DNA from: Acetobacter lovaniensis | Lineage (GTDB): Bacteria > Pseudomonadota > Alphaproteobacteria > Acetobacterales > Acetobacteraceae | Reading direction: 5' to 3' | NCBI RefSeq assembly: GCF_014207635.1 | Contig: NZ_JACHIE010000002.1 | Location: 124,001-188,000 of the forward strand | DNA: 64,000 nucleotides | Part shown: in pieces, positions 3,727-53,518 of the stretch | Numbering within the stretch: position 1 is the stretch's first letter | Layout of the letters: each line of letters begins with the position of its first letter | Notes under the pieces: generated by a model | Database searches by the model: none | Told to the model about the DNA's origin: nothing | What the model saw: the letters and a program-made list of their open reading frames with translations, nothing else | Program-made: the position numbers and the translations under genes

Positions 3727-4404
3727 ATGCGTGTTCTTCTAATAGAAGATGATCAAACGGTCCGTAACTTTGTTGCCAAGGGCCTGTCTGAAGCCGGTCA
3801 TCTGGTGGAACAGGCGGCAGACGGCAAGCAGGGCCTTGCCCTTGCCTGCCAGGACAAGTTCGATGTCATCATTCTCGACCGTATGCTCCCCGGTGGGGTA
3901 GAGGGGCTCCATATTCTTGAAACCCTGCGCCGCGAAGGCAACCTGACCCCCGTTCTCCTGCTCTCCGCTCTGGCGGATGTGGACGAAAAAGTGGCCGGGC
4001 TTAAAGCAGGCGGGGATGACTACGTCAGCAAGCCCTTTTCCTTTTCCGAGCTACAGGCCCGGCTGGAAGCCCTTGTGCGCCGCAACCGCAACGAGGCCCA
4101 GCCCCTGACCAAGCTGAGTGTGGGCGATCTGGAAATAGACCTGCTCTCCCGCGCTGTCCGCCGGGGTGGGCAGAAAATAGACCTGCAACCGCGCGAATTC
4201 CGGCTGCTGGAATTTTTAATGCGCCATACCGGACAGGTCGTCACCCGCACCATGCTGCTGGAAGGCGTATGGGACTACCATTTTGATCCGCAGACCAATG
4301 TAATTGACGTCCATATCTCCCGCCTGCGCCAGAAAATAGATAAACCGTTTGAACATGCTCTGGTGCATACGGTGCGCAACGCCGGATACATGCTGCAGGA
4401 ATGA
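3727..4404 (+). CDS. OmpR-family response regulator
   Basis: A 225-residue two-domain regulator. The receiver domain (1-115) has the acidic pair EDD at 7-9, the phospho-acceptor Asp51 in VIILDRMLP, and Lys102 in YVSKPFS. The C-terminal winged helix (about 127-223) reads GDLEIDLLSR...LQPREFRLLEFL...VDVHISRLRQK-type, typical of OmpR/PhoB DNA binding. The stop codon overlaps the start of the downstream histidine kinase by four bases, so the two are translationally coupled and form one two-component system. The nearest relatives by pattern are the QseB/CopR/TctD type; the signal is unknown. Confidence 0.95.
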   Translation: MRVLLIEDDQTVRNFVAKGLSEAGHLVEQAADGKQGLALACQDKFDVIILDRMLPGGVEGLHILETLRREGNLTPVLLLSALADVDEKVAGLKAGGDDYVSKPFSFSELQARLEALVRRNRNEAQPLTKLSVGDLEIDLLSRAVRRGGQKIDLQPREFRLLEFLMRHTGQVVTRTMLLEGVWDYHFDPQTNVIDVHISRLRQKIDKPFEHALVHTVRNAGYMLQE

Positions 4405-5843
4405 CCGGACCAGCACGATTTATGCAGACCATTTTACGCAAGGTCCGCATACAATCCGTCAGCCTGCGTTTCGGTCTTGTTTACAGCGTTCTGTTTATCA
4501 GCTCCGCCATTCTGTTCCTGTCATTTGTATGGTGGGGCACCATTGGCCTGCTGGAGCAGCGCGTACGCCACTCCATAGCGCTTGATGCCCACGCCCTGCT
4601 GACAGAATGGCAGCATGCCGGTATTCCGGGGCTGGAAAACCTGATCAACAACCGTCTGGCGCAGGATATAGATGACAACGCCCTGTACCTGCTGAGTGCG
4701 CCGGACGGCAAACTGCTGGCAGGCAATCTGGCCCACTGGCCCATACGGCTTGATGCCGCCCTGACATGGCAGACCCTGCCTGTACTCCGCGATGGGCAAC
4801 TCAACCTTGCGCAGGTCCGCGTCTGGACCCTGCAAGGCAATTACCTCCTGCTGATCGGACGCGATATTAGTGAGCGCACCCAGATCCAGCGGATGCTCAC
4901 GGACGCCATGCTCTGGACATGCCTTATGGTCGGGCTGCTGGCCGTTGGCGGGGGCTGGGTTGTACGCGTCCTGTTCCGGCGGATCATCCATTCCATCAAC
5001 CGCACAACTCTGGCCATTACGCGGGGCGACATGTCCCGCCGCATTCCCGTATCGGGCATGGGGGACGAGCTGGACGATGTGGCCCTGACCATCAACCAGA
5101 TGCTCGACCGCATTACCCGGCTTATGGATGGGGTCAAACAGGTTTCCAACTCCATTGCCCATGACCTGCGCACCCCCATTGCCCGCGCCCGCGCGGAACT
5201 GGAGGATGCCTCCCGCTCCGCCACAAACGAACTGGCCCTGCGCGCCGCCATTGATCAGGCCGCGGTCAATCTGGATAAGGTGACCGGCATTTGCGAAGCC
5301 CTGCTGCGCATTGCCCAGATTGAGGCTGGCACCCGCCGCTCGGCCTTTGCCATATTCGATCTGGCCACCACCTTGCGGGACATTACGGAATTATATGAAG
5401 CCGTGGCAGATGAGCATGGCCTCAAGCTACAGAGGAATTTCCCTCTCCACCTGCCATTCAGGGGAGATCAGGCCATGTTCCAGCAGGCTTTGGCCAATAT
5501 TCTGGACAACGCCATCAAGTTCTCTCCCCCGCAAGGCACCATAAACCTGAGCGCACAGCACATTCCCGCTGCTTCCTCCGCCGAACATGCACAGACAGGC
5601 ACCATCCGCATTATGGTTGTGGACAGCGGGATTGGTATGAATGACGCGGATCTTGCCCGTGCATCGGAACGCTTTTTCCGGGCCGAGCAGGCACGCCATA
5701 CCCCCGGTTCGGGGCTGGGGCTGGCCCTTGTACAGGCTATTGTGGAACTGCATGGCGGCACATTGCTTTTGTCGCACAACAATCCCGGCCTTGCGGTGAC
5801 TATAGATGTGCCCGCGATATATGATTACCCTGATAAACTTTAA
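4401..5843 (+). CDS. Sensor histidine kinase, HAMP-containing
   Basis: A 480-residue membrane kinase paired with the upstream OmpR-type regulator. It has one N-terminal helix (about 20-45), a periplasmic sensor region of about 110 residues, a second helix (about 172-194, LMVGLLAVGGGWVVRVLF), a HAMP linker, and an H-box SIAHDLRTP with phospho-accepting His254. The ATPase domain follows with N-box NILDNAIKFS, G1 VVDSGIGM and G2 GSGLGLALVQ. Layout and motif wording fit the HisKA/CusS-QseC group. The start overlaps the regulator's stop (ATGA). The stimulus cannot be inferred from the neighbours. Confidence 0.95.
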   Translation: MTGPARFMQTILRKVRIQSVSLRFGLVYSVLFISSAILFLSFVWWGTIGLLEQRVRHSIALDAHALLTEWQHAGIPGLENLINNRLAQDIDDNALYLLSAPDGKLLAGNLAHWPIRLDAALTWQTLPVLRDGQLNLAQVRVWTLQGNYLLLIGRDISERTQIQRMLTDAMLWTCLMVGLLAVGGGWVVRVLFRRIIHSINRTTLAITRGDMSRRIPVSGMGDELDDVALTINQMLDRITRLMDGVKQVSNSIAHDLRTPIARARAELEDASRSATNELALRAAIDQAAVNLDKVTGICEALLRIAQIEAGTRRSAFAIFDLATTLRDITELYEAVADEHGLKLQRNFPLHLPFRGDQAMFQQALANILDNAIKFSPPQGTINLSAQHIPAASSAEHAQTGTIRIMVVDSGIGMNDADLARASERFFRAEQARHTPGSGLGLALVQAIVELHGGTLLLSHNNPGLAVTIDVPAIYDYPDKL

Positions 5844-5949
5844 ACTATACGTAATATTACAATGATGACCTAAATCTATTAACGTTAATAGATCGTTTTT
5901 GGCGGATAGTTTTGTTGAAATAACATGCAATTACGTCTCTTAGTGTCCC

Positions 5950-6300
5950 ATGAAGTTCCGCTCACCCCTTCTTCTGGCTCTGGCGTGCGTTATCACTGGT
6001 GGTTCCGTCACACTTGCCAGTCAGGCACACCTGCCAACATCTGTGCTTTTTGGCTGGGACTTGTTTCCCTCCCCCCGATTATCCTCCCCTATTGTCGTCA
6101 CTTCAGACAGCCTTTCCTTCTGCCTTGAACTTGCCCATTTGATAGATTCATATGCAGCGACAAAAGCTTCTGTCTCCGTCTCGGTCTCTGTCTCCAGATT
6201 AGAAACGGAAGGCATGAATCTTTGCCAAAAAGGGCATATCCGCCCTGGACTGGTGCGGTTGCGCCGCGCCTTACTGAATGCTGAAGGAGCACCATCGTGA
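5950..6300 (+). CDS. Small exported protein of unknown function
   Basis: A 116-residue reading frame whose N-terminus looks like a Sec signal peptide (MKFRSPLLLALACVITGG, cleavage plausible after the Ala/Ser stretch near residue 24). The rest is not recognised: a middle segment has a Ser-Val dipeptide run (SVSVSVSV, about residues 77-85), and the C-terminus is basic. Its last codons overlap the start of the following SIMPL-domain gene by four bases (GTGA), which supports translation and coupling. The ribosome binding site is weak, so the start is uncertain. It may be an envelope partner of the SIMPL protein. Confidence 0.5.
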   Translation: MKFRSPLLLALACVITGGSVTLASQAHLPTSVLFGWDLFPSPRLSSPIVVTSDSLSFCLELAHLIDSYAATKASVSVSVSVSRLETEGMNLCQKGHIRPGLVRLRRALLNAEGAPS

Positions 6301-7028
6301 CTCTTCTCCCATCTTTCAAGCCCATGGGCTTTCTGGCACTCGCTTCAGGCGCGGCTGTACTGGCCCATACGCTCCCTGCCCATGCTCAGAACAATCCCGA
6401 GCCTTATACCCGGCTGGAAATCCATGCCACAGGCACAACAGAGGCCGCACCAGACAAGCTGAGTGCGCGCTTCAGGGCGGAAAGCCAGAACAGGAATGCC
6501 GCCTCCGCTCAGGGGGATGTGAATGCCGTGGTTAAAAAAGCCACAGATGAAGCGGCCAGAAATACCGACATCAAAACCGCAGTGCTCCAGTATTCCGTTT
6601 ACGAGACACAGCCCGAAAAAGCCCGCCCTTACTGGACCGCCAGCCAGACCCTGAGCCTTTCCGCCACGGATGGGAAAAGCCTTTTACCTCTGGCCGGACA
6701 GTTGCAGGCACAGGGGCTTATTCTGGAAGGGCTGGAGTGGTCACTCTCGGACGAAAAACGCCAGAGTCTGTTTCTGGAAGCCGAGAAAAAAGCCATAACG
6801 GAACTGAAAAAACAGGCCGATACACTCGCCCAATCCCTTGGCCTCCATGTCGCCCGGTTTGTGCAGATCAGTGTATCTGATCAGGACTATCCCCGCCCCA
6901 TGCCGATCATGCTCCGTGCCGCCGTTGCTGGCGCTGCGAACGATGCTGTCGGCTCCAGCCCTTCCAGTACGGCAGAAGCCCAGACCGTACGCGCCGATCT
7001 GCGGGCAACCGTGCTGCTGGAGCCCTAA
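6297..7028 (+). CDS. SIMPL domain-containing periplasmic protein
   Basis: A 243-residue exported protein of the SIMPL (DUF541) family. Residues 1-31 form a signal peptide ending near AHAQNN. The mature part opens with the family pattern RLEIHATGTTEAAPDKLSAR, continues with YSVYETQ, and ends with the two-strand element VRADLRATVLLEP. Family members (for example the E. coli YggE and BP26/OMP28 of Brucella) are periplasmic oligomers linked to oxidative stress; the molecular role is unsettled. The GTG start at 6297 overlaps the upstream small gene. A strong terminator follows 90 bases after the stop. Confidence 0.9.
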   Translation: MTLLPSFKPMGFLALASGAAVLAHTLPAHAQNNPEPYTRLEIHATGTTEAAPDKLSARFRAESQNRNAASAQGDVNAVVKKATDEAARNTDIKTAVLQYSVYETQPEKARPYWTASQTLSLSATDGKSLLPLAGQLQAQGLILEGLEWSLSDEKRQSLFLEAEKKAITELKKQADTLAQSLGLHVARFVQISVSDQDYPRPMPIMLRAAVAGAANDAVGSSPSSTAEAQTVRADLRATVLLEP

Positions 7029-39293: not shown

Positions 39294-40262
39294 TTAAAAC
39301 AACAATGGCACGTTCCATTTTTCTTCCAGAAAACTGTGTTCTGTTTGAGTGATCCAGCCCAGCCCCTGCATGTCATCCAGCATCCACGCCACGTTCCCTG
39401 CCTCTGTATGACTATGGATGTAATGTGTTTTTTCCGTAAAGTCTTCGCCATTCAAGGTTTTAAGGGTTGCGGCTTCGGGCAGGTTTAATCCTTTCTCTTC
39501 CAGCGGTGCGGCCAGGTCATGTGCAACAGTCTGTCTGTTTTCCGCATTGCGCAAAAAAATCATGGCATCGTTCAGCGCGTTGATAATTGCTTTGCAGACA
39601 TCCTGATTTTGAGACGTGCCTTGTGGCACAACAAACTGCTTTTCAATATGACGCGGCATAACGGTTTGAGAACCACCGGCCAGAAAAGCAAGGTTTTGCA
39701 GGCATGCTTCTGTCCCCCATGGTGGACCGACACACCCGCCATCTATGGAGCCATTCATCAGGGCGCTGATAATATCAGGTGGGGGCATGACCTGAATTTC
39801 AATATCCTGCTCCATGTTCACCCCTATGGATAGCAGGAACCGCTTGAGGATAAGAAAATGGGTTGAATACATATGCACAACAGAAAGCTTTGGACGGCGG
39901 CCGATTGTAGCGCGCCATGTCTCAAAGGCCTCACGCCCCTTATCCCCCGTGGGCCACTGGCCCATCAGCGGGTTGGTGCCACGCAGTATAACAGTGTTGC
40001 CGCCATAGCTTAACGTCGCAAGGGGCTTGAGTGCTGGCATATGCCCACGCCTACCCAAAGAGGTCATCATGGCCAGTGGCGCAAACATAATGGCTGCATC
40101 CAGTGTTTTCCAGACCAGACCATCTGCGATATTGGCCCATGAGGGAGAAACCACCAGTTCTGTCCTAAGCCCGTATTGTGCAAACAGGCCCGCATTATGG
40201 GCAAGCATAACGGGCGCACTATCAGACAGGCGCAGCAACCCGATACGGAGAGGTCTGGTCAT
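39294..40262 (-). CDS. nasS: NasS-like nitrate/nitrite sensor (NrtA-type fold, no signal peptide)
   Basis: A 322-residue periplasmic-binding-protein-like domain of the nitrate NrtA/NasS family. It starts directly with RPLRIGLLRLSDSAPVMLAHNAG and lacks a signal peptide, which marks the cytosolic sensor NasS, not a transporter subunit. Further signature parts are IMFAPLAMMTSLG and GGCVGPPWGTEA. In the known NasS-NasT system the sensor holds the antiterminator NasT inactive until nitrate or nitrite binds. The start overlaps the nasT stop by four bases. It is the last gene of the nitrate cluster. Confidence 0.9.
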   Translation of the reverse strand: MTRPLRIGLLRLSDSAPVMLAHNAGLFAQYGLRTELVVSPSWANIADGLVWKTLDAAIMFAPLAMMTSLGRRGHMPALKPLATLSYGGNTVILRGTNPLMGQWPTGDKGREAFETWRATIGRRPKLSVVHMYSTHFLILKRFLLSIGVNMEQDIEIQVMPPPDIISALMNGSIDGGCVGPPWGTEACLQNLAFLAGGSQTVMPRHIEKQFVVPQGTSQNQDVCKAIINALNDAMIFLRNAENRQTVAHDLAAPLEEKGLNLPEAATLKTLNGEDFTEKTHYIHSHTEAGNVAWMLDDMQGLGWITQTEHSFLEEKWNVPLLF

Positions 40263-40879
40263 GGTGTGTCGCTTTTCTGCTGCGCGGCGAGGTACTGTGT
40301 GGCCACAGTGACAATACGCTGGGATGTTTGCATCGCCCGCCCTCGGAACCAGCGATATGCCTGTGTTTCATTTGTTTTTTCATTTTTCATGAACAGCTTT
40401 TTGGCCTGATCAATAATCCTGCGCTCTTCAATTTCCTGCTGTGCGGCGCTGAGTTCCGCCCGTGTGCGCTGAAAACGCTCATAGAGCGCAATGGCTGCAC
40501 GAAGCAGCGGCTTAACATCGTCCGGGGGGGCATCCAGAACATTGTAGGAGCATACCCCTGTATCAAACGCGGTTTCCATAAGGCCTACATCGTCCTCATC
40601 CACAAACAGGGCAATGGGCCGTTCCAGTGCTGGAACAGACAGTGCGCGCACGCTATCCAGCGCATCACGGTCTGCGCGGGCCATGTCCACAAGCACAACA
40701 TCGGGGTAGTACTGGTGCACGGCTTCTATCAGGTTCATGCCAACAGGAACGGACTGTACATCAAGCGACGGGTCCGCACGCAGCGTATCGGACAAGGCCT
40801 TTGCCCGTCCGGGGTTTTCATCGGCAACCAGCACCTTGATGGGGGTGCGCATGGGGGATGGGGCAGGATATTTATCCAT
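40259..40879 (-). CDS. nasT: NasT-type ANTAR response regulator
   Basis: A 206-residue RNA-binding antiterminator. The N-terminal receiver-like domain (14-130) has Asp65 in VVLVDMARAD. The C-terminal ANTAR domain (about 140-195) shows EERRIIDQAKKLFM and TQAYRWFRGRAMQTSQ. ANTAR proteins bind paired stem-loops in leader RNA and prevent termination, here presumably in front of nitrate/nitrite genes. It overlaps nasA by one base and nasS by four, so all three are translated from one transcript. Genes nasT and nasS sit at the 3' end of the cluster, after the enzymes. Confidence 0.92.
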   Translation of the reverse strand: MDKYPAPSPMRTPIKVLVADENPGRAKALSDTLRADPSLDVQSVPVGMNLIEAVHQYYPDVVLVDMARADRDALDSVRALSVPALERPIALFVDEDDVGLMETAFDTGVCSYNVLDAPPDDVKPLLRAAIALYERFQRTRAELSAAQQEIEERRIIDQAKKLFMKNEKTNETQAYRWFRGRAMQTSQRIVTVATQYLAAQQKSDTP

Positions 40880-43800
40880 TAATAAATATCTCGCAGGTAG
40901 CGGCCCCCTCTGGTTAGCCCGGCAACATAATCATCTGCCTGGCTTGCTGGCATGGCCCCATGCCGTGCCACAATACGGCGCAATGCGGCATCCACATCAC
41001 GCGCCATACGCGCCGCATCTCCACAGATATAAAGGAAAGCCCCGGCCTGCAACCAGTTCCATAGCTCTGCCCCGGCTTCCTCCATCCTGTCCTGCACATA
41101 TATCCGCTTGGGTTGATCGCGCGAAAACGCGGTATCAAGCCGTGTCAGGCACCCGGTATGTGCAAAGTGGGCCAGTTCCTCCTGATAGTAAAACCCTTCC
41201 TGAGCGTGCCGTTCGCCAAAAAACAGCCAGTTGCGCCCTGTTGCGCCAAGGGCTTCACGCTCCTGCAAAAACCCGCGGAATGGCGCAATACCCGTGCCGG
41301 GGCCGATCATGATCACATCCGTCCCGCCATCTGCGGGAAGATGGAAATGCGTTGTGGGCTGGACAAAAACCGGCACATCGGCCCCTGCTGGCAACCCGGC
41401 AAGCCAGTTTGTGCACACACCGGGCCACGGATCGTTATTAACGCCAACAGTCAGTTCCACCACCCGCCCCGACACGAGCGGGGAGGAAGCTGTGGAATAA
41501 AGCCGGGGCTGCATCCTGCGGAACAGGGCGGGCACGTCCTGTGCCGCAACATCAAGGCGGGCCGCCTGCAACAGTTCGGGCAGATAGCCGCCTTCGGTCC
41601 GGCCCAGTGCGTGCAGCATTGCCGGGTTGGGGCGTGCCAGATCAAAATGGCGCAACAGGGCATCGTGCAGCCCAACGGTGCCTGCGCCTTTTAGGGTCAC
41701 GGGAGTGTCCGCAGGCAGGCCCAGTGCCGCCAGAGCGGTTTTGACAACCTCCACGGCATTGCAGGGCCATATCCCCAGCGCATCTCCGGGCTTCCAGTCC
41801 AGACCGCTCCTGCCCAGGTCCAGACCAATACGACGTGTATCCTTGCTGGCAGCGCCCTGACACAAGCGTTCATTCAGCGCAAGGCGGGCAATAACCGGCG
41901 CATCCCTTGTGCCAACTCTGGGCTCGGGCTGCGTGGGGATGGATGCGGCCTCCCCTCCGGGGGGTAGGGGCACTGGAGGTGTTGTGCTGTCCAGCACAGC
42001 CAGAAGCTGGCCACGCCAGACTTCTACCGTGTCCTCAAAATCCGGCTCGCAATCCACGCGGTCCATGATCATACAGGCACCCAGTTCCCGCAGGCGGCCA
42101 TCCAGCGCACAGCCAAACCCGCAGAAACTGGCATAGGAGGAATCCCCCAACGCCAGAACCGCGCAGGAGAGGCCAGTCAGTGCCTCCTTACGCGCACGCA
42201 GGGTGTCCCAGAATGGGGTTGCACAATCGGGGGGGTCACCATCCCCAAAAGTGGAGACAACAAAAATCGCCTTCCCCTGCCCGAGGTCCGCATCCTTGCA
42301 GTGATCGAGACAGGCAAGTTCCACCGTATATCCAGCCTCCCGCAGCCAGACAGCCACGGTAGAGGCCAGCGCTTCCGCCCGACCAGTCTGCGATGCCCAC
42401 CAAACCCGGATGCTCTGCCGCACGGCAAGAACATTCGGGGGAAGAGGCTGGGCACACCCCTCCCCCACACGGCTGAACAGGCCCGCCAGCAGGCCGTTTA
42501 CATAACTCCGCGCCTCCACAGGCAGGGGGGCGGATGCGGGTACATCCGGCACCAGACCGGGTTGTGGGGGCACCATACGCAACCCTTCCAGAAAACCTTT
42601 CAGCCATATTCTGGCCTGTTCGGGCAAATCTGGCTGAAGGGCTGGATCATCAAGGGAGAAATGGCGCATCAGGGTATCAAGCGGCATAGGGGCACTTCCT
42701 TCTTCCTGACGGGGGGCTGGGAGCGGCAACACATCTGGCGCAACCCGCTCCAGCTTAACGGCACAGAGCTTGAAGCCGGGCTGGAGGGAGAGCGGGTCCA
42801 CATCATCCGACGTAACTGCATTGACGGCCATGTCCGGGCCAAAGCGGTCATTCCAGTGGAATGGGGCAAAGCACTGCCCCGCCCCCACGCGCTGGCTGAT
42901 TTGAACAGGCAGAACAATGTGCCCACGGCGGGACGTCACCCTGACACGATCATCCGCCTGCAACCCAAGTAACTGTGCATCCTGTACCGAAACCTCCACA
43001 AATGGGCCGGGGTTCAGGCGGTTCAGGCTGGCAACACGGCCTGTTTTGGTCAGGGTATGCCACTGGTGTTGCAGTCGGCCACTGTTGAGCACAAAGGGGA
43101 ACTGCTCATCTGGCCATTCCTGCGGGCGCATCCACGGGCGCGCGTAAAAAATCGCACGCCCATCGGGGGTGGGGAAAACCGGCAGCACCTGCCCGGCCGG
43201 TACGTAGCGCACCGGGTGGCGGGCCTGTGTATCCCCCACAGGGGCAGGCCACTGCACCGGGCCCTGACGCAGGCGCTCATAACTCACTCCGGCGCAGTCA
43301 TAGCCGGTTTTGGGGTTTGTAAAACGGCTGAGTTCTGCAAACACTTCGGAGGATGAGGTAAAGGAAAAACCCTGCTCAAACCCCATGGCGCACGCAACGC
43401 GGGCAATAAGCTCCCAGTCGGCCAGTGCTTCCCCCGGCGGAGCAACCGCTTTTTGCGCCAAGGTCATGGTCCGGTCGGAATTCACCTGCACGCCATCCGC
43501 TTCTGCCCAAAGGGCGGCTGGAAGCAGACTATCGGCAAATCCTGTGGTTTCACTATCTGCAAAGGCATCCTGCACAACCACGTAATCCGCTTTTTCCAAT
43601 GCCCGTATGACATGGCCGCGATTGGCAACAGTAGCCACAGGGTTGGTGCAGATAATCCAGCAGGCTTTTATGCGGCCTTCTTCCATGGCCTCAAACATGG
43701 CAATGGCGCCATTGCCCCCTACATCCCGCAGGGTGCCGGGGGGGAGCTTCCACTGCGCCTCCACAAACGCGCGGTCTTCCGCCACCAGCGCGCTGCGCTG

Positions 43801-44859
43801 CCCCGGCAGCCCCGGCCCCATATAGCCCATTTCGCGCCCACCCATGGCGTTGGGCTGGCCGGTCAGGGAAAACGGGCCGCAACCGGGCCTGCACAGCGTG
43901 CCTGTGGCAAGGTGCAGGTTGCATAGCGCATTGGTGTTCCATGTTCCCGCAACACTCTGGTTCAGACCCATGGTCCACAGGCTCATCCAGTCCCCGGCCT
44001 GAGCAATCCAGCGGGCGGCGGTCATAATATCCGCAACAGGCAGGCCTGTTATTTCGGCAACAGTGCTGGGCGCATACTCTGCCAGAAAAGCAGGCATGGC
44101 GTCCCACCCACGGGTTGCCTGCGCGATAAACTGTTTGTCGATGTCTCCATTTTCAACAAGAATATGCAAAAGACCGTTCAGCAGGGCCAGGTCTGTTCCC
44201 GGGCGGATGGGCAGGTACAGGTCCGCTTTTTCCGCCGTTGCCGTTTTGCGTGGGTCCACCACAATCAGCTTTGCCCCGGCTCTTTTCCGCTCCATCAGAC
44301 GCAGGAACAGGATCGGGTGGCAATCGGCCATGTTGGACCCGATAACAAAAAACAGGTTGGTGGAGTCCATATCCTCATAACTGCCCGGTGGTGCGTCTGC
44401 CCCGAACGAGAGCTTGTAGCCCGTGCCTGCCGCTGCCATGCACAGGCGGGAATTGGATTCCATATACTGGCTGCCAACATACCCCTTTGCCAGTTTGTTA
44501 ATGAGGTACTGTGCCTCCAGAGACATCTGGCCGGACACATAAAACGCAAGTGCGTCCGGCCCATGTGTATCCAGAATACTGCGTAACCTTGCCGCCGTTG
44601 TGCCAATAGCCTGTTCAAGCGGAACCGCCACGGCATCCGCTCCACGTTGCGGGCGCAACAAGGCCGTTTTTAAACGTTCCTGCGCGTATACAGGCTTATC
44701 GCAGGAAGCGCCTTTGGTGCATAAACGACCGGCATTGGCAGGGTGCGTGGCATCACCCCGCACCTTTGCAATTTTTCCATCCTTGACATCCAGAATAATC
44801 CCGCACCCAACGCCACAGTACGGGCAGGCAGAGCGGAAGGCAGAATCAGGCATGGCCAC
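40879..44859 (-). CDS. nasA: Assimilatory nitrate reductase fused to diflavin reductase
   Basis: A 1326-residue fusion. Residues about 1-720 are the Mo-bisPGD nitrate reductase, with 4Fe-4S ligands in CPYCGVGCG and the later LCTKGASC, and the region NAMGGREMGYMGPGLPG. From about 815 to 965 comes a flavodoxin-like FMN domain (SQTGRAEALA, STFGDGDPPD, LALGDSSYASFCGFG). From about 990 to the end comes a CysJ-type FAD/NADPH reductase (RLYSTASSP, MIGPGTGIAPFRGFLQER, C-terminal RYLRDIY). One chain can thus take electrons from NADPH to nitrate, giving nitrite. It starts one base after the nirB stop and overlaps nasT. Confidence 0.95.
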   Translation of the reverse strand: MAMPDSAFRSACPYCGVGCGIILDVKDGKIAKVRGDATHPANAGRLCTKGASCDKPVYAQERLKTALLRPQRGADAVAVPLEQAIGTTAARLRSILDTHGPDALAFYVSGQMSLEAQYLINKLAKGYVGSQYMESNSRLCMAAAGTGYKLSFGADAPPGSYEDMDSTNLFFVIGSNMADCHPILFLRLMERKRAGAKLIVVDPRKTATAEKADLYLPIRPGTDLALLNGLLHILVENGDIDKQFIAQATRGWDAMPAFLAEYAPSTVAEITGLPVADIMTAARWIAQAGDWMSLWTMGLNQSVAGTWNTNALCNLHLATGTLCRPGCGPFSLTGQPNAMGGREMGYMGPGLPGQRSALVAEDRAFVEAQWKLPPGTLRDVGGNGAIAMFEAMEEGRIKACWIICTNPVATVANRGHVIRALEKADYVVVQDAFADSETTGFADSLLPAALWAEADGVQVNSDRTMTLAQKAVAPPGEALADWELIARVACAMGFEQGFSFTSSSEVFAELSRFTNPKTGYDCAGVSYERLRQGPVQWPAPVGDTQARHPVRYVPAGQVLPVFPTPDGRAIFYARPWMRPQEWPDEQFPFVLNSGRLQHQWHTLTKTGRVASLNRLNPGPFVEVSVQDAQLLGLQADDRVRVTSRRGHIVLPVQISQRVGAGQCFAPFHWNDRFGPDMAVNAVTSDDVDPLSLQPGFKLCAVKLERVAPDVLPLPAPRQEEGSAPMPLDTLMRHFSLDDPALQPDLPEQARIWLKGFLEGLRMVPPQPGLVPDVPASAPLPVEARSYVNGLLAGLFSRVGEGCAQPLPPNVLAVRQSIRVWWASQTGRAEALASTVAVWLREAGYTVELACLDHCKDADLGQGKAIFVVSTFGDGDPPDCATPFWDTLRARKEALTGLSCAVLALGDSSYASFCGFGCALDGRLRELGACMIMDRVDCEPDFEDTVEVWRGQLLAVLDSTTPPVPLPPGGEAASIPTQPEPRVGTRDAPVIARLALNERLCQGAASKDTRRIGLDLGRSGLDWKPGDALGIWPCNAVEVVKTALAALGLPADTPVTLKGAGTVGLHDALLRHFDLARPNPAMLHALGRTEGGYLPELLQAARLDVAAQDVPALFRRMQPRLYSTASSPLVSGRVVELTVGVNNDPWPGVCTNWLAGLPAGADVPVFVQPTTHFHLPADGGTDVIMIGPGTGIAPFRGFLQEREALGATGRNWLFFGERHAQEGFYYQEELAHFAHTGCLTRLDTAFSRDQPKRIYVQDRMEEAGAELWNWLQAGAFLYICGDAARMARDVDAALRRIVARHGAMPASQADDYVAGLTRGGRYLRDIY

Positions 44860-44860
44860 G

Positions 44861-47758
44861 TCAGGCAGGTGTCAGTTCAGGCGTGCCCTGACCGGCGCGC
44901 ACCCTGATCTGCACCTTGCCGTCCACCAGCCGTGCATCCCATGTGCGCAGCCGGACAGACGCATCCTCCAGACACTGGCCATCTTCCAGACGGAAGTGCT
45001 GCTTGTACAGTGGTGAGGCCACAACCCGCTGCCCCTTGATCTCCCCTATCAGCCCACGGCCAATAATGTTGGCATGCGAAAACGGGTCATGGTTATCCAG
45101 CGCATACACACAGGCAGGCTCGGCCTGCGTGGCCGGAACATAGAACAGGGCAACCTGATTGCCCTCGCACCATGCGACCACACCGGATTTTTCCACAAGG
45201 TCCGTTTGCGCGCACAGTTCCGTCCATGCCTGCGGACCTGCAAGGCTCCCTGCTTCGGGCAGGTTGGCAGCGGGCCGGACCTGATCGCGCTCGGCCACGG
45301 TGCGAATGTTGGGGTCTGGGCGGGCATCGTTTACAAATGTGCGGAAGCGCTTGAGTTTATCCTTGTCACTCAGTGCGTCCCGCCATTCGCAATGGTAGCG
45401 GTCCACCACCAGTTGCATCTGACGTTCCAGCTCTTCGGCAATGCCAAGACTGTCGTTGATGATCACGTCCTTGAGGTAATCCAGCCCGCCTTCCAGATTT
45501 TCACGCCAGACAGAGGTCCGCTGGAGTTTATCGGCCGTGCGGATATAGAACATGAGAAAACGATCTATATATTTTATCAGAGTTTCTGAATCGATGTCGG
45601 TTGCAAACAGTTCCGCATGGCGCGGCCGCATACCGCCATTACCGCAGACATAAAGGTTCCAGCCGTTTTCTGTGGCGATAACCCCCACATCCTTGCTCTG
45701 TGCCTCCGCACATTCACGCGTGCAGCCAGAAACCGCAAACTTGAGTTTGTGGGGCGAGCGTAACCCCTTGTAGCGGTTTTCCAGATCAAGGGCCTTGCCC
45801 ACACTATCCTGCACGCCGTAACGGCACCATGTGCTCCCCACGCATGATTTTACGGTGCGGGTGGATTTGCCGTAAGCCTGCCCCGTTTCAAACCCTGCAT
45901 CGAGCAGTTCTGTCCAGATTTCTGGCAACTGGTGCAGTTGCGCGCCAAACAGGTCGATCCTCTGCCCACCAGTAATTTTGGTGTAGAGATCATATTTTTT
46001 TGCAACCTGACCAAGCACGATCAGCTTGTCCGGTGTAATTTCCCCACCGGCTATGCGTGGCACAACCGAGTAGGTGCCGTTCTTTTGCATATTGGCCATG
46101 AACGTGTCGTTCGTGTCCTGCAGGGGAATATACAGCGGGTCGGTTATGGGCTTGTTCCAGGCCGAAGCAAGAATGGACCCAACCGCAGGTTTGCAGATGT
46201 CGCACCCCAGACCGCCATGACCATACTGCTGCATCAGCTCTTCAAATGTCTGGATACCGTGCACCCGGACCAGAGAATACAGCTCCTGCCGAGTATGGGA
46301 AAAATGCTCGCACAGGCTGCGATCAACCGTAATGCCCCGGCTTTCCAGCTCCGTTTCAAAAACACTTTTCAAAAGGGCGGCACACCCGCCGCACCCTGTG
46401 CTGGCTTTTGTGGTCTGCTTGAGTTCCCCCAGATCGGTGCACCCGGCATCTATTGTTGCGCAGATCGCCCCTTTGGTCACGTTATGGCATGAGCAGACCA
46501 TGGCCGTATCGGGCAGGGCATCGGCCCCAAGCAGTTCCGCCCCTTCCCCACGCGGGAGAATCAGTACTGCCGGGTCGGCCGGAGGTTTGATCGCATTCTG
46601 CACGTACTGGAGAATGGTGTCGTAATACGAATTATCGCCCACCAGCACGGCACCCAGAACACGGGTGCCATCACCAGACAGCACGAGCCGCCTGTAAGTG
46701 CCATCTGCCTCGCCAATAAAGCGGTAGCTCCTGCTCCCCGGCGTTGCCCCGTAGGCATCGCCAATGGAGCCTACATCCACGCCCTGCAATTTGAGCTTGG
46801 TGGACATGTCCGCCCCGGTAAACGCGGCCTCCTCGCCTGCCAGAATGGCCGCAACGGTGCGGGCCATGGCATAACCGGGCGCAACCAGACCAAAAACCTG
46901 CCCCTGCCAGGAGGCACATTCCCCAATGGCAAAAATGGCCGGGTCTGACGTACGGCAGCTCTGGTCAATAACAATTCCGCCGCGCGCCTGCACCTCCAGC
47001 CCGCACTCACGCCCAAGCTGGTCCTGTGCGCAAATACCAGCAGAAAACACCACCATATCGGTTTCCAGAAACGTATCGTCTGCAAAAATCAGGCGGTGTC
47101 GGCTGGTCTGACCCGGTACAATCTGCTTTGTGACATGGGATGTGCGCACATCTATCCCCAATGCCTCAATCCGGCATTTGAGCGCATCCCCGCCTTCCTT
47201 ATCCAGCTGAGCGGGCATAAGATGCCCCCCAAGCTGGATAACGCTTGTATGCAAGCCCAGTATTCTCAGGGCGTTGGCGGCCTCCAGCCCAAGCAGGCCA
47301 CCCCCGATAACCGTACCGTGCCGCGCCCCCTGTGCTGCTGCGCGGATAAGGTCCAGATCTTCCAGATTACGGTAAACAAGCCCAGCCGTACCGGTGTTGC
47401 CGGGCACCGGGGGCACAAAGGGGGTGGAACCGGTTGCCAGAATCAGGGTTGTGTACTGCAAAGCACCTTCTGCACTGTGTACGGTCTGCGCCTGCCGGTC
47501 GATGCGGTTTACGCGCACCCCACGGTGCAGGGTAATGCCGTGTGCCGCGTGAAAATCTTCCGCATGCAGGCGCAGGGCCAGTGCATCCTGCCCGGTCATG
47601 TATTCGGTCAGGTGCACGCGGTCATATGCATCGTGCAGTTCCTCGCCAAATACATGGATGGCACAATTTTCATTCAGGCCGTGCATGACAAGCTGTTCCG
47701 CACAGTAGTGCCCCACCATGCCATTGCCGATGATAACGATAGTGCCGGAAATGGCCAT
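44861..47758 (-). CDS. nirB: Assimilatory nitrite reductase, NirB-NirD fusion
   Basis: A 965-residue siroheme nitrite reductase (nitrite to ammonium, NADH or NADPH as donor). The N-terminal FAD/NAD domain starts GTIVIIGNGMVGHYC. Two BFD-like cluster regions follow (MVCSCHNVTKGAIC and later GLGCDICKP). The sulfite/nitrite reductase core has the 4Fe-4S/siroheme cysteines in SCVGSTWCRYG and CTRECAEAQSKD. The last about 115 residues are a NirD domain (WTELCAQTDL to KVQIRVRAG) without Rieske Cys/His ligands, as usual for NirD. The ATG at 47758 is chosen because the Rossmann strand begins at residue 5; an earlier start would add 17 unrelated residues. Confidence 0.95.
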   Translation of the reverse strand: MAISGTIVIIGNGMVGHYCAEQLVMHGLNENCAIHVFGEELHDAYDRVHLTEYMTGQDALALRLHAEDFHAAHGITLHRGVRVNRIDRQAQTVHSAEGALQYTTLILATGSTPFVPPVPGNTGTAGLVYRNLEDLDLIRAAAQGARHGTVIGGGLLGLEAANALRILGLHTSVIQLGGHLMPAQLDKEGGDALKCRIEALGIDVRTSHVTKQIVPGQTSRHRLIFADDTFLETDMVVFSAGICAQDQLGRECGLEVQARGGIVIDQSCRTSDPAIFAIGECASWQGQVFGLVAPGYAMARTVAAILAGEEAAFTGADMSTKLKLQGVDVGSIGDAYGATPGSRSYRFIGEADGTYRRLVLSGDGTRVLGAVLVGDNSYYDTILQYVQNAIKPPADPAVLILPRGEGAELLGADALPDTAMVCSCHNVTKGAICATIDAGCTDLGELKQTTKASTGCGGCAALLKSVFETELESRGITVDRSLCEHFSHTRQELYSLVRVHGIQTFEELMQQYGHGGLGCDICKPAVGSILASAWNKPITDPLYIPLQDTNDTFMANMQKNGTYSVVPRIAGGEITPDKLIVLGQVAKKYDLYTKITGGQRIDLFGAQLHQLPEIWTELLDAGFETGQAYGKSTRTVKSCVGSTWCRYGVQDSVGKALDLENRYKGLRSPHKLKFAVSGCTRECAEAQSKDVGVIATENGWNLYVCGNGGMRPRHAELFATDIDSETLIKYIDRFLMFYIRTADKLQRTSVWRENLEGGLDYLKDVIINDSLGIAEELERQMQLVVDRYHCEWRDALSDKDKLKRFRTFVNDARPDPNIRTVAERDQVRPAANLPEAGSLAGPQAWTELCAQTDLVEKSGVVAWCEGNQVALFYVPATQAEPACVYALDNHDPFSHANIIGRGLIGEIKGQRVVASPLYKQHFRLEDGQCLEDASVRLRTWDARLVDGKVQIRVRAGQGTPELTPA

Positions 47759-48141
47759 GGTCAGTAACTCCTCGCAATTTGGGAACAGGGGATGGCAACG
47801 CGGGCGCACCTATGCACGCATGACTGCCCAGAAGCGTGCAACCGCCCCCGCAGGAGACTTGCGCACAGGGGAAGATAATGCACGTTACAAAAAACAGAAT
47901 GTGAAAAACGCTGCACCATTATGGAACGGTTCCTGCGTTTGCACTGTGTGCAAACACGCCTTGCTCAGGCCAAGGAGCCGCCGTTGACCCCTGAACAACT
48001 CGCCGTTAACCCGTTACCACCGCCGCTGACGGTAACTGTTATGGGATGCTTCCAATTAGTTCCCTACACGAAATAAAATCAATAGGGAACCACAGATCAC
48101 AACAGGGCAGACCCTCACCCACATCGTTCCGGCACATGGAC
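47759..48141 (-). promoter_or_regulatory. nirB leader with several inverted repeats
   Basis: 383 bases between the broken porin gene and nirB, without a gene. On the minus strand, in order: GTTCCCTA...TAGGGAAC (48090-48059, 16-base loop); GTTACC...GGTAAC (48036-48013); the dyad GTTTGCAC-ACA-GTGCAAAC (47955-47937); and a 6-bp stem AAACGC...GCGTTT (47940-47906) followed by further T. The last two overlap by four bases and cannot form together, a layout like an antiterminator/terminator switch. It is a candidate RNA target for NasT; the hexanucleotide loops typical of ANTAR sites were not clearly seen. Confidence 0.5.
47937..47955. promoter_or_regulatory. 8-bp perfect dyad in nirB leader
   Basis: GTTTGCAC-TGT-GTGCAAAC, about 180 bases before nirB. 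It could act as an RNA hairpin or as a DNA operator (TTGCA...TGCAA, Crp/Fnr-like halves with one base too much spacing). Confidence 0.5.
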
Positions 48142-49852: not shown

Positions 49853-51073
49853 TCAGGAAATTGCGGAAAAGCCGGTCGTGTCAGTCCCCTGTGCGCCCGC
49901 TGGTTTGTTCCAGCTTCTGCGGCAGATGGATACACAGACAAGCGCCACCAGAGCAATACCGGCAAAAGCCAGAAACCCCAGACTATAAGACCCCGTGGCC
50001 TGCCGTGCGGCACCCAGCGAAGATGCCAGGTAAAACCCGCCAACCCCACCGCTCATGCCGACCAGCCCGGTCAATATACCCACCTGTTGCGCAAAACGTG
50101 TGGGAACCAGTTGAAAAACGGCACCATTTCCCAGACCCAGCACCAGCATGCCCACAAAAAAAGCGGGAAACGCCAGCCAGATCGTAGGCAGTCCAAAACC
50201 GATCAGGCCAAAAATAACGGTTGCCGCCCCGTAGAGTATGCATAGCGCGCGCTCGCCCCCAATACGGTCTGCCAGCGCGCCACCCAGCGGGCGGATAAAA
50301 GAACCTGCAAACACAACCAGCGCGGTGCAGCTCCCCGCCACTGCGGGGGAAAGACCATACTGGTCATTAAAATAGATGGTCAGGAAGGAGGCCAGCCCGA
50401 CAAAGCCGCCAAATGTTACGCCGTAAAAGAACATCAGTGCCCAGCAATCGGCTTTTTTCAAAACCGGGAGCCATGCCACAAGGCCGGCACTCGGGTGGCG
50501 GGGCGGTTCTTTGGCAAGGTAGATAAAGGCACACAGCACAAGAACAAGCGGCAGCGTGGCCAGCCCGAACACGTTGGTCCAGCCATAAAGGGCCGCAAGC
50601 CCGGGCGCGAACAGGGAGGCAAGTGCCGTGCCGGAATTACCAGCCCCGGCAATACCCAGCGCCGTACCCTGATACTGCGGAGGGTACCAGCCCGATGCCA
50701 GCGGCAGCGCCACCGCAAAGGAAGCCCCGGCCACACCCAGAACAAAAGCCACCGGGAACAGGCCGATATAACTGTGTGGTGCCAGCATCCATGTTGCCGC
50801 AAGACCGGCAATAACAAAGGACTGCATGCCTATGGCAACGCGGCGCGGGCCATAATGGTCAACCAGTGCGCCAGCAACAACCCGCAACAAGGCCCCTGCG
50901 AGCACTGGCATGGCCACCAGCAGCCCTTTCTGGGCGGAATTCAGGTGCAGATCATGCGATATGGCTATGCCCAGTGGTCCAAGCAGCACCCAGACCATGA
51001 ACGACACATCAAAATATAGAAAAGCGGCAAGAAGAGTGCGGGGATTACCAGCTTTGAGGAAACCTCTATCCAT
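49853..51073 (-). CDS. narK: Nitrate/nitrite transporter, NarK/NasA type MFS
   Basis: A 406-residue, 12-helix MFS permease of the nitrate/nitrite porter family, likely bringing in nitrate for assimilation. The nitrate-signature helices are the Gly-rich FALGNGAVFQLVPTRFAQQVG-type segment in the second half and GVTFGGFVGLASFLTIYF; the Asp-Arg loop ADRIGGERALCILYG follows TM8. It begins the nitrate cluster, transcribed towards the porin, nirB and nasA. The 317-base region upstream holds several palindromes that may be operator sites. Confidence 0.93.
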   Translation of the reverse strand: MDRGFLKAGNPRTLLAAFLYFDVSFMVWVLLGPLGIAISHDLHLNSAQKGLLVAMPVLAGALLRVVAGALVDHYGPRRVAIGMQSFVIAGLAATWMLAPHSYIGLFPVAFVLGVAGASFAVALPLASGWYPPQYQGTALGIAGAGNSGTALASLFAPGLAALYGWTNVFGLATLPLVLVLCAFIYLAKEPPRHPSAGLVAWLPVLKKADCWALMFFYGVTFGGFVGLASFLTIYFNDQYGLSPAVAGSCTALVVFAGSFIRPLGGALADRIGGERALCILYGAATVIFGLIGFGLPTIWLAFPAFFVGMLVLGLGNGAVFQLVPTRFAQQVGILTGLVGMSGGVGGFYLASSLGAARQATGSYSLGFLAFAGIALVALVCVSICRRSWNKPAGAQGTDTTGFSAIS

Positions 51074-51390: not shown

Positions 51391-52107
51391 CTACGAAAGT
51401 TCACCCTGTGCAATCCTGCGCAACCTGCTTGCATCACGCACAGCCAGCATCTGGCGTGAGCGGGCAAGGAGCCCCGCTTTCTCCCACGCGGTCAGCACGC
51501 GGCTGGCGGTATGAAGCGTTGTGCCAGCCAGTTCCGCCACATCCCTGCGGCGTAGGGGCACACAGATCACACCGGTCTCAGCCTGCACGGCACCACTCTG
51601 CTCAACCAGCATGAGCAGGGCATGGGCAATGCGCTGTTCTGCACTCTGGGTTGCCATTTCACGCAGGCGATTTTGAACATTGGCAAGCCGCTGCCCGACC
51701 ATGCCGATAATGTTGATCGCAATTTGCGGGTGGTTCATGGTCAGCGCCAGAAAATCCGCTTTTGACCAGCTTGCAATATGCGAAGGCATCGCTGTTTCAG
51801 CGTCCGCCGGGTAATACCCTTCGGTAAACAGCGCGACGGTGCCAAACATTTCCCCCGGCGCAATCATGCGCATCAGTGCCTGCGCGCCATCGCTCCCGAT
51901 CTGGCGGATACGCACAGCCCCCACAAGCACCGCATAGGCACGCTGCGCCTGCGCCCCCTGCGTGAGAACACTGACCCCACCCGGTAAAACATCAACCCGC
52001 GCCAAAGAGATAACATGCGCCTTGACCCCGGACGGCAGTCCCTTCACCAGATCAAGTGCGCAAATGGCCTTGGCCGTATCCTCTGGACGCGTTTTTTGCT
52101 CAGACAT
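51391..52107 (-). CDS. Crp/Fnr-family regulator without FNR cysteines (NnrR/Dnr-like candidate)
   Basis: A 238-residue transcription factor: cyclic-nucleotide-type beta barrel (about 20-130, GGVSVLTQGAQAQRAYAV and MIAPGEMFGTVAL), long dimer helix (NIIGMVGQRLANVQNRL) and a winged HTH (about 180-232, LRRRDVAELAGTTLHTASRVL). It has no N-terminal cysteine cluster, with only one early Cys, so it is not an oxygen-sensing FNR; heme-type NO sensors of the Dnr/NnrR group look like this. It lies 54 bases downstream of the CopD-like gene on the same strand and next to the nitrate cluster, so control by NO or nitrite is a reasonable inference. Confidence 0.88.
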   Translation of the reverse strand: MSEQKTRPEDTAKAICALDLVKGLPSGVKAHVISLARVDVLPGGVSVLTQGAQAQRAYAVLVGAVRIRQIGSDGAQALMRMIAPGEMFGTVALFTEGYYPADAETAMPSHIASWSKADFLALTMNHPQIAINIIGMVGQRLANVQNRLREMATQSAEQRIAHALLMLVEQSGAVQAETGVICVPLRRRDVAELAGTTLHTASRVLTAWEKAGLLARSRQMLAVRDASRLRRIAQGELS

Positions 52108-52161
52108 GCCATGACCTTTACACCCCTTATGCCGCGCAGGGTATTCCTGCCATGCGCACGA

Positions 52162-52638
52162 TCAGAACAGTGACCAGCCATGACTGCCTGCCACGGCACC
52201 AAAAATGGTCACAAGACCCAGCACCAGCAGTACAGCATGCACGCGTTGCAGGACGGCAAAAGCAGCCTCCGGGTCGCGCTTTGCCCAGACGTTAAAATGC
52301 CGGTGGAGAACAAGAGGCTCCGCAACAAACAGAACAAGGGCAAAAACCAGCCACAGCCCCACCATAGCGTGCATCCACCAGAAACCGGGTTCAGAAAAAC
52401 GGGACCAGAGGTCCATTTTCATGACCATAAAAAGCCCGCTCAGCCCGACAAGCACCACAGCACTGCGCGCCTGCCACACAAAACGGCGCTCAAAAGCCTG
52501 AAAAGCCGCAAGTCTGTCAGGCCCGAACACACCATGACGCAGGGCAGGCAAAGCCGCTGTGGTGGCCATTGAGACCCCGCCAATCCAGATCACGACCCCA
52601 ATCACATGCAGTGCTCGGGCGATTGCCAGCTCGTCCAT
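52162..52638 (-). CDS. CopD-like four-helix membrane protein
   Basis: A 158-residue inner-membrane protein with four hydrophobic helices (about 7-25, 52-72, 84-103, 131-150) and conserved-looking histidines (ALHVIGVVIWIGG, WWMHAMVG, VHAVLLVLG), resembling the CopD/DUF2269-type family. The ATG at 52638 follows AAGGAGG closely, so the upstream in-frame ATG is rejected. Probably co-transcribed with the Crp/Fnr gene downstream and divergent from the truncated haemoglobin gene. The histidines could bind heme or metal; function unknown, perhaps in NO or copper handling. Confidence 0.8.
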   Translation of the reverse strand: MDELAIARALHVIGVVIWIGGVSMATTAALPALRHGVFGPDRLAAFQAFERRFVWQARSAVVLVGLSGLFMVMKMDLWSRFSEPGFWWMHAMVGLWLVFALVLFVAEPLVLHRHFNVWAKRDPEAAFAVLQRVHAVLLVLGLVTIFGAVAGSHGWSLF

Positions 52639-52711
52639 CCATTCCTCCTTGGGAAAGTTGCCATTTTTATCAGTCAAACCGCATTTCTAGTGCATTCTTG
52701 CCCTGCCGGGT

Positions 52712-52725
52712 TTGCGCTGGCGCAA
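52712..52725. promoter_or_regulatory. NnrR/FNR-type box in the divergent CopD-like / trHb promoter
   Basis: TTGCG-CTGG-CGCAA, a perfect 14-bp dyad with the TTG-N8-CAA geometry of Crp/Fnr-family sites. The half-site TTGCG is the form described for NnrR targets in Rhodobacter-type bacteria (TTGCG-N4-CACAA). It lies 60 bases before the haemoglobin start and 74 bases before the CopD-like start. Confidence 0.65.
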
Positions 52726-52785
52726 CCTTTCTGCCAGTCGCATCAGATAGAATATGCTCAACACCCAGTTAAGGAGGCCCATGTC

Positions 52786-53187
52786 ATGAGCAGACCGCCA
52801 CTGAACGAAGACGGGCTGACGATGCTTGTCGAAGCCTTTTACACGCGTGTCCGGGCCGATCCTGACCTCGGCCCCATTTTTGAAGATGTCGTGACCGACT
52901 GGCCGGAGCACCTGCAGACACTAACGGCTTTCTGGTCTTCCGTCATGCTGGGTACCGGGCGCTACAAAGGCCAGCCAGTACCGGCGCATATGCAGTTCCG
53001 TGACAGGATCACGCCAGAACTGTTCGATCGGTGGCTGGCCCTGTGGCGCGAGACCACATCCACACACATGCCAGCAGATGTTGCCGCCACTCTTCAGGAC
53101 AAGGCGGCCAACATTGCCAGAAGTCTGCAATTTGCCCTCTCTTTTTACGCCAGACGTGCTGTACCCCAACACAACACAGTGCCCTGA
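52786..53187 (+). CDS. Group III truncated haemoglobin
   Basis: A 133-residue truncated haemoglobin of group III (Ctb type). Conserved parts are the N-terminal LVEAFYTRVRADPDLGPIF, the Trp in FWSSVMLGTGRYKGQP, the proximal His68 in PVPAHMQF and the late ITPELFDRWLALWRETT. Such globins bind O2, NO and related ligands; in Campylobacter Ctb responds to nitrosative stress. The ATG at 52786 has AAGGAGG eight bases upstream. It is divergent from the CopD-like/Crp genes with an NnrR-like box between, and followed 28 bases later by the DUF1971 gene. Confidence 0.93.
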   Translation: MSRPPLNEDGLTMLVEAFYTRVRADPDLGPIFEDVVTDWPEHLQTLTAFWSSVMLGTGRYKGQPVPAHMQFRDRITPELFDRWLALWRETTSTHMPADVAATLQDKAANIARSLQFALSFYARRAVPQHNTVP

Positions 53188-53215
53188 CGCAAAACACTTC
53201 AGAAAAGTCACGCCC

Positions 53216-53518
53216 ATGACCGAAGTCGAGCCATATCGTTCCACACCCGTGTTCGATCAGGACACGCTGCCTGCCGCCTTGCGCACGCGCCATAATACCA
53301 GAGCAGGTGTGTGGGGAGTGATCCGGGTGCTTGAAGGAGCCCTGAAGCTCACTTACCTCGACCCGCCATCCGAACTCCTGCTGACACCACTCACCCCCGG
53401 TCTGATCCTGCCGCAGCAGCCACATTTTGTGACACCCGTCGGCACCATGACAATGAGAGTGGATTTTTACGATCAGTCACCACCCGATGCTCTTTTTTCC
53501 CGCCCCGTTCACATATGA
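53216..53518 (+). CDS. DUF1971 domain protein (cupin-like, TehB-associated type)
   Basis: A 100-residue protein with the DUF1971 pattern: STPVFDQDTLPAALRTRHNTRAGVWG at the start, VIRVLEGALKLTYLDP, GLILPQQPHFVTPVG and RVDFYDQSP at the end. These small cupin-like domains accompany truncated haemoglobins or TehB-type methyltransferases; the reaction is not established. The gene follows the haemoglobin gene closely in the same direction and should share its promoter. ATG at 53216 is used, since the upstream in-frame sequence overlaps the haemoglobin gene. Confidence 0.85.
   Translation: MTEVEPYRSTPVFDQDTLPAALRTRHNTRAGVWGVIRVLEGALKLTYLDPPSELLLTPLTPGLILPQQPHFVTPVGTMTMRVDFYDQSPPDALFSRPVHI

Follow-up and report, generated by a model that had tools for sequence, protein, structure and literature searches.

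A divergent gene set with an NnrR-type regulator beside the nitrate-assimilation genes of Acetobacter lovaniensis and its probable role in nitric oxide protection

Why would a Crp/Fnr-type regulator, a small membrane protein, a truncated haemoglobin (trHb) and a DUF1971 protein stand together beside the nitrate-assimilation genes of an acetic acid bacterium, Acetobacter lovaniensis? The four genes lie in a stretch of 64,000 nucleotides, here called the window, which covers positions 124001-188000 of contig C2 in a genome of 3.46 Mb. A first-pass annotation had placed them at 51391-53518 and read them as protection against nitric oxide (NO) beside nitrate assimilation; all four open reading frames (ORFs) and their family assignments were confirmed. 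We consider it probable that they make up a divergon with an NnrR-type regulator of its own, induced by NO in both directions and protecting the cell against NO beside nitrate assimilation. The parts of the locus are these:

51391-52107, minus strand: NnrR-type Crp/Fnr regulator, 238 amino acids, without the FNR cysteine set (Pfam, recognition helix, tree)
52162-52638, minus strand: CopD-like, distantly HemJ-like membrane protein, 158 amino acids, with four predicted long helices and invariant His11 and His134 (Pfam, alignment, predicted structure)
52639-52785, no strand: divergent promoter region of 147 bp between the CopD-like and globin genes (ORF coordinates)
52712-52725, no strand: NnrR box TTGCGCTGGCGCAA (pattern match; consensus from PMC1274295)
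52786-53187, plus strand: group III truncated haemoglobin, 133 amino acids (Pfam, solved relative, alignment)
53216-53518, plus strand: DUF1971 (YeaR/TehB-N-like) protein, 100 amino acids (Pfam)

The regulator gives the first part of the answer. Its cNMP_binding and HTH_Crp_2 domains score 58 and 53.2 bits, both above the Pfam cut-off, and its translation holds two cysteines in total, at positions 16 and 182, so that the FNR iron-sulfur cluster is absent, as first annotated. The earlier description as an unspecified Crp/Fnr protein was right as to class and can now be narrowed by helix, tree and promoter box: judged by its sequence, the regulator belongs to NnrR, the NO-responsive Crp/Fnr clade. 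The recognition helix reads GTTLHTASR, compared with GTTLHTVSR in nirK-linked NnrR; a second Crp protein beside norD in Gemmobacter carries GMKPESLSR, unlike that of the window, and is presumably of the DNR type. In a tree of 46 rows the window regulator falls in a group of 19 (support 91/92) with the nirK-adjacent NnrR of Ensifer and Gemmobacter and with a Sinorhizobium pSymA copy, whose record carries no annotation and whose regulator was identified by similarity only. The grouping was found again in a 74-row tree (SH-aLRT 91), from which 12 of 86 rows were left out because the chosen ORF had no match over 140 residues. A starred subclade of the 46-row tree (99/100) unites the window regulator with those of A. 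ascendens, Sphingomonas (Rhizorhabdus) wittichii and genomes G443, G014 and G034, and in all six a CopD-like gene lies no further than about 1.3 kb away. On the 74-row tree, having a CopD-like neighbour requires 9 changes, against 23.5 with shuffled labels.

The promoter between the two arms carries a box, TTGCGCTGGCGCAA, that matches TTGCG-N4-CGCAA exactly and fits the published NnrR consensus ctTTGcgnnnncgCAAag (PMC1274295). It stands 60 bp ahead of the globin ATG and 73 bp ahead of the CopD-like ATG, and is the single exact match in the 64 kb, where base composition predicts 0.07; with one mismatch allowed the window holds 4 matches against 5.5 expected, which is uninformative by itself. 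The exact box is kept in A. ascendens, in A. pasteurianus, in the gap between the CopD-like and NnrR genes of G014 and in that between NnrR and the globin of S. wittichii. In G034 it has one mismatch, and G443 shows only a looser palindrome with three. Control of the window set by NsrR was considered and rejected, the best NsrR-like site in the promoter having three mismatches.

Both the box and the CopD-like neighbour recur beyond Acetobacter. A scan of GTDB species genomes with a six-row NnrR alignment gave 78 loci, 52 of them with a regulator nearer to that of the window than to the Ensifer type; the 52 are not independent, since several are near-copies (four Acetobacter loci; four sphingomonad loci with identical regulators), and in many cases the contig stops short of the 6.5 kb considered. 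A CopD-like gene lies no more than 2 kb from the regulator in 36 of these 52, and at 3.3 kb in one more, while 6.5 kb around the regulator hold qNorB in 17, NnrS in 12, a group III trHb in 11 and DUF1971 in 9. The other 26 loci have no CopD-like gene at all and NnrS in 10. Of the 36 NnrR-CopD loci, 32 have a promoter box with at most one mismatch and 18 an exact one; random 270-bp stretches from the same loci (3600 draws) do so in 4.6% and 1.9%, where the promoter stretch was about 270 bp, or about 720 bp for four Acetobacter loci, and the control could include the promoter itself. A layout in which NnrR is divergent from a CopD-like gene followed by qNorB is recurrent (L105, L278-L280, L284, L285, L290, L294 and others), and in such layouts the CopD-like protein may be an accessory of the quinol-dependent NO reductase (qNOR).

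Overlapping effectors also stand behind an unrelated regulator. A protein search of plasmids found a CopD-like gene in 29 records, and the surroundings were viewed for 15, one of them unannotated; nitrate islands, nar, nos, nor, hmp or Rrf2 genes occur in 13 of the 14 annotated surroundings, and those of a Tistrella plasmid hold no N-oxide gene. In Tardibacter, S. paeninsulae and Sphingobium TKS an Rrf2 gene is divergent from trHb III, DUF1971, hmpA and CopD-like genes; S. paeninsulae has an alternative oxidase as well. The Rrf2 gene of S. yanoikuyae faces trHb III, DUF1971 and CopD-like genes without a full hmpA, followed by qNOR; that of Roseomonas mucosa faces hmpA, trHb III, fdxA and others, DUF1971 and a CopD-like gene, and that of Paracoccus aminovorans hmpA, a CopD-like gene and a Crp gene beside norCBQD-type genes. 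The NsrR consensus, gATGyAT-N5-ATrCATc (PMC1274295), lies ahead of the first gene exactly in seven of eight plasmid loci and with two mismatches in R. mucosa; for two of the eight (L151 and L170) the stretch viewed contains no Rrf2 gene. Among 200 random 250-bp stretches per locus, the true site included, 2 to 7 contain an equally good match. Thus trHb III, DUF1971, Hmp and CopD-like proteins are found behind NnrR in some genomes and behind NsrR in others. The R. mucosa operons (L149 and L173, about 4366-6480) also encode FdxA, a carboxymuconolactone-decarboxylase-like protein and DUF488, and DUF488 is likewise found near a DUF1971 gene in A. ascendens.

On the right arm, the globin scores 23.5 for Bac_globin (cut-off 21), and its best solved relative is the group III trHb 2ig3 (E 2e-17). 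Its Tyr19, His42, His68 and Trp83 recur in all nine of the other group III rows compared; with the alignment to 2ig3, we take these to be haem-pocket positions B10, E7, F8 and G8. The structure 2ig3 is Campylobacter Ctb, called Cj-trHbP in PMC4106858, and in Bradyrhizobium diazoefficiens a group III globin is 17-fold down in an nnrR mutant (PMC6710368). Swit_5203 of S. wittichii was tried as a further group III member and rejected, since it has Asn and Ile at two pocket positions and aligns as an Hmp-like globin. The DUF1971 protein scores 82.2 bits for PF09313 (cut-off 23.1) and resembles TehB-type proteins (3m70, 3dl3) in their N-terminal part, with 23 residues invariant in 12 rows. The E. 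coli control genome carries this family, and we take E. coli YeaR to be a DUF1971 protein. The first-pass annotation had called the roles of both DUF1971 and the CopD-like protein unknown; for the former this went too far, E. coli YeaR being an NO/nitrate-induced NsrR target (PMC5320621), and for the mechanism of the latter it stands.

The original parts list held for the Crp/Fnr regulator, the group III globin and DUF1971, by Pfam or a solved relative; the CopD-like protein scores 27.6 bits for CopD, below the PF05425 cut-off of 32.1. The 24 rows aligned all have His11 and His134, and 20 of them have His at position 90. The predicted structure has four long helices (pLDDT 89.7); a fold search with the model gave no clear relative (no Foldseek match at E 0.001), a structure comparison scored cytochrome bd at Z 9.4 at most, with unrelated bundles reaching 11.1, and a sequence search found no solved relative. 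A tree of 74 CopD-like proteins has a starred group of 29 that includes the window protein; 27 of the 29 are N-oxide-linked, but 21 had been fetched through NnrR and are linked by construction, which leaves six linked among the other eight. In a separate group of sphingomonad and Paracoccus proteins all 10 are linked, and most of the unlinked proteins stand apart. NO-linked branches therefore exist inside a wider CopD-like family. The gene adjoins qNOR in some loci and Hmp or a globin in others, which favours a broad role, haem or electron supply for example, over partnership with a single enzyme; most likely it encodes a small haem- or metal-binding protein serving these NO-consuming haem enzymes.

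That role might be HemJ-like: when NO is present or oxygen is low, the protein would supply or handle haem for use by the globin and qNOR, neither acting on NO nor moving electrons, which is compatible with the rest of the NnrR divergon. In favour of this, 13 of 24 members match UPF0093/HemJ weakly (best E 6e-6), the window protein aligns collinearly, if weakly, with the HemJ of this genome (P 0.03), and NnrR regulons include hemN genes (PMC1274295, PMC6710368). However, the UPF0093 (PF03653) score of the window protein is 12.8 bits against a cut-off of 34.2, and CopD and DUF4149 each match as many members (13 of 24 at E up to 1). The genome also has a HemJ of its own on C9 (195.8 bits); with this and the weakness of the matches, outright identity with HemJ was rejected, and we regard the haem-supply role as unlikely, if worth bearing in mind. 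Bolder, and somewhat more doubtful again, is the idea that it founds a new family of small membrane proteins which carry haem b (or copper) and take a direct part in NO defence. Such proteins might, for example, feed electrons from quinol to globins that lack a reductase, or bind NO at the membrane; NnrR- and NsrR-linked branches would have been recruited separately, with DUF1971 as a soluble partner.

The left arm, regulator and CopD-like gene, points towards the nitrate-assimilation genes, and the right arm holds the globin and DUF1971. The neighbours on the left are:

49853-51073, minus strand: NarK-type nitrate/nitrite transporter of the major facilitator superfamily, a neighbour kept in synteny (family match, synteny)
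44861-47809, minus strand: NirB-NirD fusion, assimilatory nitrite reductase (family match)
40879-44859, minus strand: assimilatory nitrate reductase fused to a CysJ-like flavoprotein, the proposed nitrite source (family match)
40259-40879, minus strand: ANTAR regulator (ORF; product name from the syntenic A. ascendens record)
39294-40262, minus strand: substrate-binding protein (ORF; product name from the syntenic A. ascendens record)

The last two (39294-40879) are presumably a NasT/NasS-like pair, as in NasS-NasT control. A. lambici, A. pasteurianus LMG 1262, A. cerevisiae and A. fabarum encode all four proteins at 86-89% identity and keep their order beside NarK, as does the A. ascendens plasmid pAP1447-1; layout and box were found again in five other Acetobacter records. 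Compared with A. fabarum (L275), the module (51397-53485) is 86% identical in DNA, below the 93% of the adjoining nitrate genes, which may reflect faster change or a different history. On plasmid pAPA01-011 of A. pasteurianus IFO 3283-01 (L146, 4941-7300), a globin, DUF1971 and an NnrR box lie beside an IS1380 element, with no CopD-like match among the plasmid matches listed and no NnrR annotated nearby; this stretch is a natural regulator-less remnant.

Such a place, beside NarK, NirBD and nitrate reductase and kept in Acetobacter, could also mean that the set answers to nitrite or nitrate and serves nitrite handling in assimilation, with a globin that reacts with nitrite or acts in redox. 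Against this stand the NnrR-type regulator and its box, as well as relatives of the set that have qNOR, NnrS and Hmp as neighbours or follow NsrR boxes and that often lack nitrate-assimilation genes; we find this reading improbable. A divergon answering to NO would work as follows. NO would arise from the nitrite of the adjacent nitrate reductase, NO generation by B. japonicum NasC having been reported (PMC4724949), or outside the cell from acidified nitrite; since acetic acid bacteria make acid, they may meet NO formed chemically from nitrite. NnrR would bind the box at 52712-52725 and activate transcription in both directions, to the right the truncated haemoglobin and DUF1971, to the left the CopD-like gene and, by read-through, nnrR itself. 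The haemoglobin would bind and destroy NO in the cytoplasm, helped by DUF1971 and by the CopD-like protein, which would work at the membrane with any of these haem enzymes that the cell has. The regulator, the exact box, the recurrent CopD-like, qNOR, NnrS and globin neighbours and the effectors behind NsrR boxes all speak for the protective role first proposed.

The rest of the genome bears on this role as well. Contig C33 (L112, 1-8072) carries a second NO locus with Hmp, a 780-amino-acid qNOR, a DUF1971 paralogue and a DNR-type Crp protein, and its translations further point to a PAS-domain protein, a DUF488-like gene and, truncated at the contig end, the beginning of an NsrR-like gene. Next to an IS3-type transposase there lies the C-terminal end of a trHb-like gene, so a second globin seems to have been cut at that point. 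A second Hmp is found on C1. The search of the genome for NirK gave partial cupredoxin-like matches only, and NirS was not searched for; the organism appears to assimilate nitrate and to protect itself from NO, and not to be a NirK denitrifier.

Several points weigh against an NO-induced, protective divergon. The NnrR grouping, at 91/92, is not starred in the 46-row tree, and the whole genome holds 10 exact copies of the box against 4 of a reversed control pattern; seven of the ten lie inside ORFs of at least 90 amino acids in a rough ORF listing, the rest being this one and copies on C3 and C10. With two Hmp and a qNOR elsewhere in the genome, the set may be dispensable. No further counted NO gene lies within 6.5 kb in 15 of the 36 NnrR-CopD loci, one of which adjoins narK and narH. 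Two genomes of the same genus have none of the four genes, no exact foursome was found outside Acetobacter, and 18 of 20 CopD-like genes class-wide have no counted marker near them (one of the two that do rests on a 34% NirK match), so the CopD-like family has other settings.

The same scarcity might suggest unrelated genes brought together by chance. Among 120 genomes of the family, its own included, the globin occurs in 38, DUF1971 in 9, the CopD-like protein (E<1e-30) in 17 and the regulator (E<1e-30) in 9, and all four occur together only in the window's own genome. In 337 genomes of the class, CopD-like genes occur in 22, DUF1971 in 23 and both in 5, adjacent only here. Yet partial sets are found in G014 and G034 (NnrR, CopD-like), G078 (trHb, CopD-like), G017 (trHb, DUF1971, CopD-like), G058 (DUF1971, CopD-like), G041 (trHb, DUF1971) and G035 (trHb, NnrR-like), and other genera have pairs and triples of these families together with NnrR or NsrR boxes. 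Of the 17 CopD-like genes in the family, 13 have N-oxide markers nearby, three of them by a 37-38% Rrf2 match only; of 20 control regions, none holds a marker. The gene order is kept in A. ascendens and four further Acetobacter genomes, which argues that the grouping is not chance, and we give coincidence very little credence. The four-part system that the first-pass annotation had thought possible is, as a fixed set, unsupported outside Acetobacter: its members do co-occur, as a foursome in Acetobacter and as pairs and triples elsewhere, but the partners are modular, with an Hmp-type globin in S. wittichii and Hmp or qNOR added in other loci. Copper or tellurite resistance, suggested by the family names CopD and TehB, is scarcely credible and was ruled out, since CopD is below its cut-off, DUF1971 stands alone (100 amino acids) without the TehB methyltransferase part, and regulator, box and neighbours point to NO.

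How, then, does the Acetobacter set compare with known systems? Regulator clade, recognition helix and box are shared with the NnrR regulon of alphaproteobacterial denitrifiers (Rhodobacter, Bradyrhizobium, Sinorhizobium), and the B. diazoefficiens group III trHb is, like the window globin, linked to NnrR, being NnrR-dependent with a similar box (PMC6710368). In contrast to that regulon, the window regulator sits in a nitrate-assimilation island, no NirK was found, and its visible target is one divergon. A further likeness is on plasmid pSWIT01 of S. wittichii RW1, where NnrR (Swit_5204) is divergent from a globin, DUF1971 (orf1) and a CopD-like gene (orf2), with an exact box between. It differs in its Hmp-type globin, in the qNOR that follows, in gene order and in having no nitrate-assimilation genes in the 12.5 kb viewed. 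In this NnrR-hmp-orf1-orf2-norZ cluster nitrite raises globin mRNA about 2- to 4-fold, and the authors had already named Swit_5204 NnrR, leaving orf1 and orf2 unnamed (PMC4123721). The narK-bjgb-flp-nasC genes of B. japonicum likewise tie an NO-detoxifying haemoglobin to nitrate assimilation, the reductase itself giving NO (PMC4724949), but as one operon with an Hmp-type globin and the flavoprotein Flp, under NasS-NasT according to a section heading of that paper, whereas the window has a separate NnrR divergon. That type of operon was not found in the window: the globin there is of group III and divergent from the nitrate genes, and none of the four proteins is a flavoprotein by Pfam.

The NsrR-type plasmid operons of sphingomonads and Roseomonas share the trHb III, DUF1971 and CopD-like families with the window, and that of Paracoccus has Hmp and the CopD-like protein only; in them an Rrf2 regulator and an NsrR box replace NnrR, and Hmp is usually added. 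We know of no DUF1971 or CopD-like partner for the NssR-Ctb/Cgb system of Campylobacter jejuni. There too a Crp/Fnr protein controls a group III trHb under NO, although in a different species and with an iron-sulfur centre presumed for NssR in a review (PMC3820574). YeaR of the E. coli yeaR-yoaG pair is NO/nitrate-induced and NsrR-regulated (PMC5320621), and differs from the window in partner gene and regulators. The NnrR regulon, the NnrR-dependent group III trHb, the S. wittichii cluster, YeaR under NsrR and a haemoglobin in a nitrate-assimilation operon are thus already known. Among the literature matches listed, nothing but the unnamed orf2 (PMC4123721) ties a CopD-like protein to NnrR or NsrR operons, and none by title concerns NO and nitrate assimilation in Acetobacter; one paper names DUF1971. 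As far as that literature shows, what is new is the divergon in an Acetobacter nitrate island, the placing of orf2 in a CopD-like family with NO-linked branches, and the use of this family behind two regulators. As to what reduces group III truncated haemoglobins and what DUF1971 does, recruitment of overlapping gene sets by two unrelated NO regulators narrows the field to testable partners, and the Acetobacter divergon suggests that acetic acid bacteria couple their NO defence to the assimilation of nitrate.

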